Assembly (NCBI GenBank): GCA_944322855.1
Contig: CALUQG010000013.1
Coordinates: forward strand, 1-52,050
Source of the DNA: Candidatus Gastranaerophilales bacterium
GTDB lineage: Bacteria > Cyanobacteriota > Vampirovibrionia > Gastranaerophilales > Gastranaerophilaceae
DNA length: 52,050 nucleotides
Reading direction: 5' to 3'
Positions within the stretch are counted from its first letter, which is position 1; each line of letters begins with the position of its first letter. Position numbers and translations under genes: made by a program. Below, piece after piece: positions 47,449 through 51,697 of this stretch. Under the pieces are notes generated by a model. That model saw only the letters and a list, made by a program, of their open reading frames with translations. It was not told the DNA's origin and did not search any database.

Positions 47449-48726
47449 CTAAGATTTACATCCGCAAAAACTCAAACCTGCCTGTTCTTTCAACAAAGCT
47501 GCTTTATCAGTTTTTTCCCATGGAACATCTATGTCACTGCGTCCCATGTGACCGTATGCAGCGAGTAGTTGATAGAATTTGCCGCCATTTTTTGCCGGCA
47601 AACCTCTGAGGTCAAATTGCTTAATGATAGCAGCAGGTCTCAAATCAAAGTTTTTCTTCACGAGTGCAGAAATCTCATCATCAGATATTACACCTGTACC
47701 GAATGTCTCAACCATAACAGATACAGGTTCTGCAACACCAATTGCATAACCGAGTTCAACTTCACATTTTTGAGCCAAACCTGCTTTGACAATGTTTTTT
47801 GCAACATATCTTGTTGCATAAGCAGCTGAGCGGTCAACTTTTGTCGGATCTTTACCTGAGAAAGCACCGCCGCCGTGACGTGAATAACCGCCGTATGTGT
47901 CAACAATGATTTTTCTTCCTGTCAAACCGGCATCGCCTTGAGGGCCGCCGATAACAAATCTTCCTGACGGGTTAATTAAATATTTTGTATTTTCATCAGG
48001 CTTAATCGCATCGTTTTCAAAAACAGGCTTAATGACATATTCAATCAAGTCTTCTCTAATTATTGATTGAATTTTTTCATTGTCAGAAATTCCGTTAATT
48101 TCAGGATCGTGTTGTGTAGACAAGACAATCGTATCAATTCTGGATGGTCTTCCGTCTACATATTCAACAGTAACCTGAGATTTTCCGTCAGGTCTCAAGT
48201 ATCCGAGTGTACCGTCTTTTCTAACCTGTGCTAGTTTGTGAGCCAATCTGTGAGCAAGGCTAATCGGCAAAGGCATAAGTTCAGGTGTTTCATCACATGC
48301 AAAACCAAACATAATACCCTGATCGCCTGCACCAACATCTTCTGTTTCACTTGTTGAAGTATCTGCATTACTGTTTCTAGCTTCGAGAGCTTTATTTACA
48401 CCGCCTGCAATATCAGAAGACTGCTCATCTATTGATGTTAATACAGCACAGTTTTTGTAATCAAAACCGCCACCTTCTGCTCCTGCATAACCGATGTTTT
48501 TAATAGTATTTCTTACGACTGCCGGAATATCAACATAGCAGTCAGATGTAATTTCTCCGCAAACCAGAGCCATACCTGTAGTTACGGTAGTTTCTGCAGC
48601 TACTCTTGAGCCCGGATCTTTTGTAAGAAATTCATCCAAAATTGCATCCGAAATCTGATCGCATACTTTGTCAGGATGACCTTCTGTTACAGACTCTGAT
48701 GTAAAAAGAAATCTTTTTGATGCCAT
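47449..48726 (-). CDS. metK: S-adenosylmethionine synthetase
   Basis: A 425-residue enzyme making S-adenosylmethionine from methionine and ATP. All signature parts are present: [20 protein letters not shown] at the start, [42 protein letters not shown] and [18 protein letters not shown]. Ribosome binding site is AAAGGGAAAA. The length is slightly above the usual ~380-400, with small insertions between motifs. I find no SAM riboswitch motif in its leader. The intergenic region upstream folds strongly on the opposite strand. Confidence 0.95.
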
Positions 48727-48864
48727 TTTCTAATTTTCCCTTTCATATATACCTGAGTGACTCTTCAGGATTAAGGACATGTTAAAACAAAGGAAAATCA
48801 GCGTCAAATAAAGTATTCCATAGCTTTACAATGCTTAATCTATATTTCAATATAGTCAATGGTA

Positions 48865-49140
48865 GAAACTTTATAACACTAAAAATTATTCCATTTTACA
48901 GAAAAAACACTAATACTCTCAGTCTATAAGACATGATTAGGCTAAAGACTAACTCTTCGGAGTTTAATTATTACATCTCTCCATCGGGAAATATAATTAT
49001 CTGACAATATTAACAGCAAGGGGTTCGGAGACAGCATGTCCCTGATGGCATAGTCTATGGATTAGAGCTTTTTAGCATTTGAAGAAAATTTACTCAGTCC
49101 TGTGCTGAGAAATTTTCGCAAAAAGGCTCACTATAGTTTC
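48865..49140 (+). ncRNA. Structured RNA candidate between metK and clpC
   Basis: About 275 bases with nested pairings. GAAACT (48865-48870) pairs with AGTTTC (49135-49140), GCTAAA (48941-48946) with TTTAGC (49071-49076), and AGACTA (48946-48951) with TAGTCT (49051-49056). CCATCGGG (48981-48988) pairs with CCCTGATGG (49040-49048, one bulge). A perfect AACTC-TTCG-GAGTT hairpin (48951-48964) has a cUUCGg loop in plus orientation. A long 3' hairpin (49084-49117) has a 13-pair stem. The UUCG loop favours the plus strand. It lacks tmRNA, RNase P or SRP RNA signatures; a 6S-like RNA is not excluded. Confidence 0.5.
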
Positions 49141-49159
49141 CCCCCCCCCCAAAAAAAAA
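49140..49159. repeat. C11-A9 homopolymer tract
   Basis: Eleven C residues (49140-49150) are followed directly by nine A residues. In this A+T-rich background a C11 run is striking. It lies between the RNA candidate and the clpC terminator, whose T-run on the minus strand is the A9 tract. Length variation by slippage or a sequencing artefact is possible. Confidence 0.9.
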
Positions 49160-49192
49160 GAAAAGAGAAATTTTAATCAATTTCTCTTTTCT
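49151..49192 (-). terminator. Terminator of clpC
   Basis: AGAAAAGAGAAATT (49159-49172) pairs with AATTTCTCTTTTCT (49179-49192). On the minus strand a run of eight T (49151-49158) follows directly. It may also stop the RNA candidate from the other side. Confidence 0.88.
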
Positions 49193-49216
49193 TCTATTAC
49201 TATATAGCTTTTATTT

Positions 49217-51697
49217 CTACTTAACAGTTTCTGTTTCAACTTTAGCGGCATCATTATGACCGGCTTTTTCAAAAACAATCTTTTTGTCTTCAAGTTTTGC
49301 AGAAATAACATCTCCAGCCACATATTTGCCATTAAGAATTTCTTCGGCAAGAGTATCCTCTATTTTCTTTTGAATTACTCTTCTAAGAGGTCTGGCACCA
49401 TATGCCTCAGAATAACCTTCATCTGCAAGATAATCTTTAACCTCATCTGAAACCTCAATAGTAAAGTCATGTGACTGAATACGTTTAACAAGGTCTTTAA
49501 ACATAAGGTCAACAATTTCTCTAATTTCAGGTTTGCTAAGATGAGAGAACACGATAATATCATCAATTCTGTTAAGGAATTCCGGTCTGAATGCCTTTTT
49601 CATTTCTTCCATAACAGTATCTTTAAGGTGTTCATATTTGTCTTTTGACTCATCGTTTGAAACAGAGAAGCCGAGTTTTGATGAAGTTGTAATCATGCTG
49701 GCACCAACGTTACTTGTCATAATAATAATAGTATTTTTAAAGTTAACGTGTCTGCCTTTTGCATCTGTCAAACGTCCGTCATCAAGTATTTGCAGCATGA
49801 TATTGAACACATCAGGGTGAGCTTTTTCAATTTCATCAAAAAGAATAACTGAATACGGTTTTTTTCTGATTGTCTCAGTTAAATGTCCGCCATCATCATA
49901 TCCGACGTAGCCCGGAGGAGAGCCGATAAGTTTTGATGTTGAATGTTTTTCCATAAACTCTGACATATCAACTCTTATCATATTTTCTTCAGAGCCAAAT
50001 ACAGCTTCTGCAAGAGCTTTTGCAAGTTCTGTTTTACCGACACCGGTAGGGCCAGCAAAGATAAAGCTTCCGATTGGCCTGTTCGGAGATTTTAGCCCGA
50101 CTCTGGCACGTCTAATTGCTTTTGCCAGAGATACAACAGCCTGATCCTGACCAATTACCCTCTGATGAAGAGTATCTTCGAGTTTCAAAAGTCTTTCGGA
50201 TTCTTTTTCAGTAATCTTTGTAGTTGGAATACCGGTCATTGTACTGACAACCTCTGCTACGTGTTCAGCTGTAACTACCGGTTTATTGGCATCATGTTCT
50301 TCTTTCCATTGTTGTGACATTTCTCTGATTTTTTCTTTCAAATCAGCCTCTTTGTCACGAAGATTGGATGCATGTTCAAACTCTTGATTACGAATTGCAT
50401 CTTCTTTTTGTTTGATAATACTTTTTAGCTCTTTTTCAAGCTCTTTTCCTTCCGGTGGCAGCGAGCTTACATTCAATCGGACTTTTGAGCTTGCTTCATC
50501 AATAATGTCTATCGCCTTATCAGGAAGAAATCTGTCAGTAATATACTTATCAGACAATGAAACTGCAGCAATAATCGCTTCATCAGATATTTTCAATCTG
50601 TGGTGTTCTTCATATTTTGACTTAAGTCCTCTTATAATCTCGATAGATTCGTCAATTGAAGGTTCTTCAATGATTACCGGCTGAAATCTTCTTTCAAGAG
50701 CAGCATCTTTTTCAACATATTTTCTGTATTCATCCAGAGTAGTTGCGCCAATAACCTGAATTTCACCTCTGGATAAAGCCGGTTTCAATATATTGGCAGC
50801 GTCAATAGCACCTTCTGCAGCGCCAGCACCAATCAAAGTATGCATTTCATCAATAACAAGAATTACATTTCCGGCTTGCCTGATTTCATCCATAATCTTT
50901 TTGAGACGTTCTTCAAATTCACCTCTATATTTTGTACCTGCAACAAGCAATCCCATATCAAGCTGAATGATTTTTTTGCCTTCCAAAATATCAGGAACAT
51001 CAGAATTAACAATTCTTATAGCAAGTCCTTCTGCAACAGCAGTTTTGCCGACACCCGGTTCACCTATCAAAACAGGATTATTTTTTGTTCTTCTTGCCAG
51101 TATTTGTATTACACGTTCAATTTCTTTTTCTCTGCCTACAACAGGATCAAGTCTTTGCTCTTGAGCTGCAAGAGTAAGGTCTGTGCCAAATTCATCTAAA
51201 GAAGGAGTTTTTGTTTTACCGCCTGAAGCAGTACCGGCAGTCGCTGTCTGAGCAGTGGGTTTTGATTCGCCAAGCATTTTTATAACATTGCTTCTGAGCT
51301 TGTTTAAATCAACACCGAGATTTTCAAGAACTCTTGCAGCAACACCTTCGCCTTCTCTTATTAAGCCGAGAAGAAGATGTTCTGTACCGATATAATTGTG
51401 ACCCAGCTGTCTTGCTTCATCCCAGGAAAGCTCCAAAACTCTCTTGGCTCTGGGGGTAAACGGTATTTCAACAGCAACAAAGCCTGAGCCTCTGCCTATT
51501 ATTTTTTCAACTTCAGCTCTTGCATCTTTGAGGGTTATCCCCATAGATTTCAATGTTTTTGATGCAACACCGGTGCCTTCACCGATTAAGCCAAGCAGAA
51601 CCTGTTCTGTACCGACAAAATTATGTCCTAATCTTCTCGCCTCTTCTTGAGCGAGCATGATTACCTTTATCGCTTTTTCTGTAAAACGTTCAAACAT
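49217..51697 (-). CDS. clpC: ClpC protease ATPase subunit
   Basis: An 826-residue Hsp100 unfoldase that feeds substrates to ClpP. Order of parts: two Clp_N repeats (about 1-150, [20 protein letters not shown] and the second beginning [17 protein letters not shown]), AAA-1 with Walker [10 protein letters not shown] near 212, a UVR-type coiled middle domain near 425-465, AAA-2 with Walker [14 protein letters not shown] near 551, and a C-terminal D2 small domain ([20 protein letters not shown]). The UVR-containing layout is that of ClpC rather than ClpA or ClpB. It is monocistronic with its own terminator. Confidence 0.96.

Follow-up and report, generated by a model that had tools for sequence, protein, structure and literature searches.

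A structured segment between metK and clpC of a Gastranaerophilales genome is probably a truncated copy of a dispersed modular palindromic repeat

Pneumococcal BOX elements are modular intergenic repeats of 67–637 bp with a fixed order of modules, MITE-like in design and having terminal inverted repeats; they fold into stem-loops if transcribed, and are reported to cause target-site duplications (excerpts of PMC3049150). In the GTAG REP/BIME and RAYT/TIRYT systems the repeats are dispersed extragenic palindromes, with REPs nested in longer palindromes and intergenic regions that are mosaics (excerpts of PMC3733652). The repeat described below is comparable with both, and with bacterial MITEs. 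We found no description of such a repeat in those parts of the open-access literature on Gastranaerophilales and Melainabacteria that were consulted, and the family appears to be undescribed.

The window, that is the whole stretch of 52,050 nucleotides that was analysed, contains metK and clpC on the minus strand. The 490-base gap between them is free of genes from the end of metK at 48726 to the start of clpC at 49217, as a preliminary description had stated, and to this gap that description had assigned a single structured RNA of ~270 bases (48865–49140). We conclude instead, with a probability of roughly 0.85, that what stands here is an incomplete copy of a modular palindromic repeat, non-coding and dispersed in the Gastranaerophilales, which is MITE- or BOX-like in kind. 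When the gap was searched against its own genome (2.01 Mb in 33 contigs) and 29 relatives, the segment 48986–49129 was found in seven further own-genome copies matching at 87–96%, giving at least eight dispersed copies, and copies were also found in congeners. In four of the seven other copies the right end coincides with that of the window copy or differs from it by up to three bases (a contig end cuts one), and this edge at 49128/49129 is common to several other copies. The left edge lies at 48986 in the genome search and at 48982 with short-word blastn, by which the rest of the gap has no significant copy among the loci compared. A longer copy, the 681-base mosaic L032, used as the query gave 81 own-genome matches including itself, falling into blocks. 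The features of the locus are collected in Table 1.

Table 1. Features of the metK–clpC region, in window coordinates.
Feature	Position	Strand	Basis or remark
metK	47449-48726	-	
metK promoter-like site TTGACG-N17-TAACAT	48779-48807	-	kept upstream of metK in 5 congener loci (by eye)
Dispersed repeat, window copy (modules A + B of a composite intergenic element)	48982-49129	+	own-genome matches
Module A	49015-49059	+	short G+C-rich palindrome of GGGGTTCGGRGACNGCAYGTCCCTGATGGCRTAGTCTATGG type, decayed in the window; alignment of copies
Module B, 3'-truncated long hairpin	49062-49129	+	copy alignment, folds, covariance model
Homopolymer junction, C11 then A9	49140-49150, 49151-49159		past the truncated repeat, before the clpC terminator
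clpC intrinsic terminator	49156-49195	-	17-pair stem and T run
clpC	49217-51697	-	

The module B of the window tracks the other copies up to its right edge and then diverges. The outer 3′ arm TAAAAGCTCTTTTG is absent, and in the stem that is left GAGCUUUUU pairs with AAAAAGGCUC. The covariance model R1 scores the window copy at 70 bits, compared with 97–111 bits for five intact copies of the same genome. The window copy has neither module C nor termini, and abuts the C11A9 run ahead of the clpC terminator. This C11 is the sole run of C or G of at least seven bases in the 52-kb window; the homopolymer could slip during replication, or could mark a weak point of the assembly. A long G run is present at a comparable module junction in the copy L035. 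The window copy has lost the outer 3′ arm and module C, and the junction at which it sits is not shared with the congeners examined. We take this copy to be inert, and see no sign that it serves either metK or clpC.

By eye, other genes precede metK in five congeners, and the sequence after clpC differs in ten congeners, where it is mostly a stem-loop with a T run. The pairing of metK with clpC was not seen in these congeners, among which the gap thus has no orthologous counterpart. The region directly upstream of metK (48727–48850, minus strand) is kept in the congener metK loci inspected, despite the differing genes beyond. Besides the promoter-like site it holds the motif GATTAAGC..TGTAAA and a CCGGGTGACTCTCCGGG-type leader hairpin, and it has no Rfam match.

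How widespread is the repeat? Of 23 congeneric genomes searched with model R1, 19 carry module B, with up to 20 matches each and 13 to 20 in four of them, some of the matches being antisense double hits at one place. Under stricter filters at least 13 of the order's 286 genomes carry it; three of these belong to another genus within the family and one to a different family. This is a lower bound, since the own genus accounts for only nine there. The exact core pattern occurs among named genomes in seven stretches from five MAGs only, of which three are titled Candidatus Gastranaerophilales, one ‘uncultured Clostridia bacterium’ and one ‘uncultured bacterium’. Module B overlaps no open reading frame of at least 90 codons in any of 17 loci scanned, and the genes flanking its copies have mixed orientations. 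No match to the repeat was found in plasmid, phage or viral collections, and carriage by such agents was rejected on that ground.

In most of the copies inspected by eye the modules follow the order A-B-C in one orientation, with differing flanks. Module A is a short G+C-rich hairpin to the left of B, and module C is an A+T-rich hairpin with arms GGTTCGTTT..AAATGAAC that lies to the right of B after a linker. Module A is absent from some copies, and some copies are truncated. A-B-C is one of several module sets within intergenic islands that are devoid of open reading frames. In several congeners the module set is placed between inverted terminal repeats with the core TGATAATATTTATTATGTA. Allowing up to two mismatches, this core is found 38 times in genome G001, 63 in G014, 18 in G011, 16 in G017, 13 in G004, and 5 in each of G031 and G000; the reversed sequence used as a control gives two matches in G011 and otherwise none. 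The core is nearly missing from the genome of the window (5 mostly weak matches), most of whose copies have no terminal repeat, and it was not found in the window itself.

Inverted pairs of TGATAATATTTATTATGTA enclose islands of 146–846 bp, together with one pair at 1266 bp (L186). The latter was considered as an autonomous element and rejected, as by eye its interior resembles more palindromic modules. Orthologous sites can be occupied by different islands. At one site the island measures 422 bp in G001 and 660 bp in G011, between flanks of 87–91% identity, and at another 527 bp in G001 and 696 bp in G014, between flanks of 87–94% identity. In both pairs little besides the terminal repeats matches inside, the exception being an inverted match of 126 bp (73%) in the G001/G014 pair. 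In a third pair, L182/L189, the interiors are the same but for one indel. At orthologous sites the islands L176/L187 and L177/L041 keep flanks and terminal repeats and have different palindromic interiors. No target-site duplication was visible in the island flanks inspected. A search for empty sites of two G001 islands, L180 and L181, found no clean example, as the left and right flanks match different places in relatives; the loci matching the left flank of L181 (L202–L206) have no terminal repeat. In most relatives the flanks of these two islands match different contigs or places, and the islands may sit at points of rearrangement.

A transposase linked to the element was not found, PF01797 (Y1_Tnp) being the family tested. 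This domain is absent from the genome of the window and present in 10 of the 30 genomes searched, and neither module B nor the terminal repeat lies beside the six Y1 loci examined. In 19 genomes, using counts of B after removal of antisense double matches, the association of copy number with the presence of Y1 was not significant (one-sided rank p 0.08, Fisher p 0.26). A RAYT as the mobiliser was rejected, given a host genome without PF01797 and a copy number not significantly linked to Y1. Integron attC sites, IS200/IS605 ends and a TnpB guide RNA were also considered as candidates, to the extent of this PF01797 search. A different palindrome, GTTGGGCAGGTATGCCCAAC, is found near or in three of the six Y1 loci (L088, L089 and L090, RAYT-like genes of congeners), with a second copy inside the open reading frame (1477–2013) in L088 and L090. 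Some copies of GTTGGGCAGGTATGCCCAAC, for example that in L037, are preceded by GTAG as in GTAG-tagged REPs.

The element shares with BOX the modular, stem-loop-bearing, MITE-like intergenic design, a comparison made on architecture (excerpts of PMC3049150), but its hairpins are larger at 84–102 nt, there are several interchangeable module sets, its terminal repeats enclose differing interiors at one site, and target-site duplications were not seen in the Gastranaerophilales islands. Dispersed palindromes and mosaic intergenic regions are features in common with REP/BIME (excerpts of PMC3733652), and the own-genome copy L037 has a GTAG-preceded palindrome GTAGGTTGGGCATACC..TGCCCAAC beside module A. 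Yet a GTAG REP is a tagged palindrome of 20–40 bp associated with a RAYT, while module B measures 84–102 nt, has no GTAG tag and was not found beside the six Y1 loci examined, and we do not count it among them. The repeat is short, multi-copy, intergenic and free of open reading frames, as are bacterial MITEs, and has inverted termini in congeners (compared with excerpts of PMC2229807); it differs from them in that neither a parent transposon (in the PF01797 search) nor a target-site duplication was found, and in that the window copy has no termini.

In its intact form module B is an 84-nt hairpin of 30 pairs, and lengths range over 84–102 nt for what is an imperfect hairpin; that of L032 folds at –30.6 kcal/mol (z –5.8), matched by none of 200 shuffles. 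A set of 14 copies has 92% mean column identity in the alignment, and the first alignment of B gave slight covariation, with two pairs changed on both sides. The signal is far stronger in 62 distinct copies, taken from 65 matches in 52 chosen loci that are only part of those available (L125, L144 and L169 were excluded as repeats of L082, L085 and L130). Here 95.1% of 1780 cells are paired compared with 75.3% when shuffled, 24 of 30 pairs have changes on both sides compared with 18.2 (none of 500 shuffles reached 24), and the covariation score is 0.476 compared with 0.154 shuffled and 0.11 when slid by one column, all in an alignment that was fitted to R1 and is hence biased towards its structure, and in which cells are not events. 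Module B keeps its pairing although the sequence has changed, and the margin over shuffles is wide. Several of the stems have turned over completely, and the sequence type differs between genomes (64 of 87 matches, after removal of antisense double hits and identical sequences). Modules can also nest within modules: in two G004 copies, L047 and L048, the loop of B is replaced by another palindrome of ~110 bases, a relative of which abuts B in L044.

Such covariation would be expected if module B were a functional RNA (it might stabilise 3′ UTRs, act as an attenuator or be a multi-copy small RNA), where the paired changes reflect selection on RNA and the window copy is a broken example. The conserved segments TTTAC and CTCTTTTG within B are in keeping with that reading, as is an excess of G-U over A-C cells on the strand modelled (67 to 13, in 14 and 8 columns). 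Two columns supply 42 of the 67 G-U cells, however, in an alignment fitted to the model, so that the excess favours action as RNA or single-stranded DNA only weakly. Moreover the number of matches varies from 0 to 20 between congeners, the type of sequence varies with the genome, the flanking genes are in mixed orientations, and the repeat has no match in Rfam. Template switching in quasi-palindromes can yield paired changes without selection on RNA, and by eye the own-genome copy L037 has swapped arms in B. We consider a function as RNA to be possible but unlikely. Still less probable, and to our mind very doubtful, is that the hairpin provides clpC with an additional terminator or a 3′ end element. 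The hairpin lies 27 bases past the stem of the clpC terminator, and a weak terminator-like site was called on the minus strand at 49109–49093; but clpC already has its 17-pair terminator, other copies of the hairpin adjoin unrelated genes, and by eye it is absent for up to 600 bases after all 10 congener clpC genes.

The reading from which the analysis started, one stable ~270-base non-coding RNA closed by a helix of 48865–48870 with 49135–49140, fares worst of all. Both of its well-formed hairpins are real. The cUUCGg hairpin (AACUC-UUCG-GAGUU, 48951–48964, plus strand) can be read from the sequence, and is unique sequence outside the repeat with no significant copy found; the 13-pair 3′ hairpin (49084–49091/49110–49117 and 49093–49097/49105–49109, with one bulged A) is the apical part of module B by sequence and fold. 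The 276 nt as a whole fold little better than shuffled sequence (z –2.1 or –2.3 in two runs), and this excess comes entirely from the 3′ hairpin 49062–49129, which alone has z –4.18 with none of 200 shuffles folding as well. Once it is removed, the remaining 48865–49061 climbs to z +0.46 and is equalled or bettered by 131 of 200 shuffles, and the 5′ part 48865–48985 has z –0.35. The nested long-range pairing that had been proposed is thus at the level of chance. The six-pair closing helix belongs to no conserved unit, since its arms pair unique sequence on either side of the repeat. Compensatory changes are seen in relatives, but for the 3′ hairpin alone. The edges of the repeat run through the proposed structure, the right half of which is the 3′-truncated repeat. 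Its left half has neither significant copies nor unusual folding; other copies have different sequence in its place, and homology of 48850–48985 to other mosaic copies was rejected on a local alignment score of 34, where the null reached 37. With the gap itself not orthologous in the congeners examined, the reading is already largely refuted, and we give it next to no chance. Its description of the structured sequence as unassigned does hold. With the Rfam 15 covariance models at gathering score the window has one tRNA elsewhere and no other match, the gap at E up to 10 has sub-threshold matches only, and 11 loci with other copies of the repeat gave nothing but an L10 leader, which falls outside the repeat. 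On the same evidence 6S, tmRNA, RNase P, SRP RNA and SAM riboswitches were rejected.

The many copies, the intergenic position, the modular palindromes and the inverted termini in congeners together argue for non-autonomous mobile DNA, and the window copy is best read as a dead fragment of an element family of this kind that we have not found in print. Such an element would spread at the DNA level, its copying being the work of a trans-acting enzyme that may recognise the hairpins or the terminal repeats. The hairpin may be retained because mobility needs it; alternatively, template switching within the palindrome might keep correcting its arms. More speculatively, the Gastranaerophilales might carry an undescribed class of modular intergenic island, in which terminal inverted repeats, fixed at one place in the chromosome, bound interchangeable interiors of long palindromes that are exchanged or re-inserted there between species, perhaps through single-stranded DNA, and of which module B would be one strongly covarying hairpin superfamily. 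We put this forward as a tentative proposal, with the odds against it.

Our analysis replaces a false candidate for a non-coding RNA with a small mobile repeat family that can be tested, in an uncultured gut lineage. It also warns that a covariance signal is by itself no proof of RNA function, as an equal signal can arise from palindromic mobile DNA. With islands whose ends are equal and whose interiors differ, the spread of palindromic modules could be put to a direct test.
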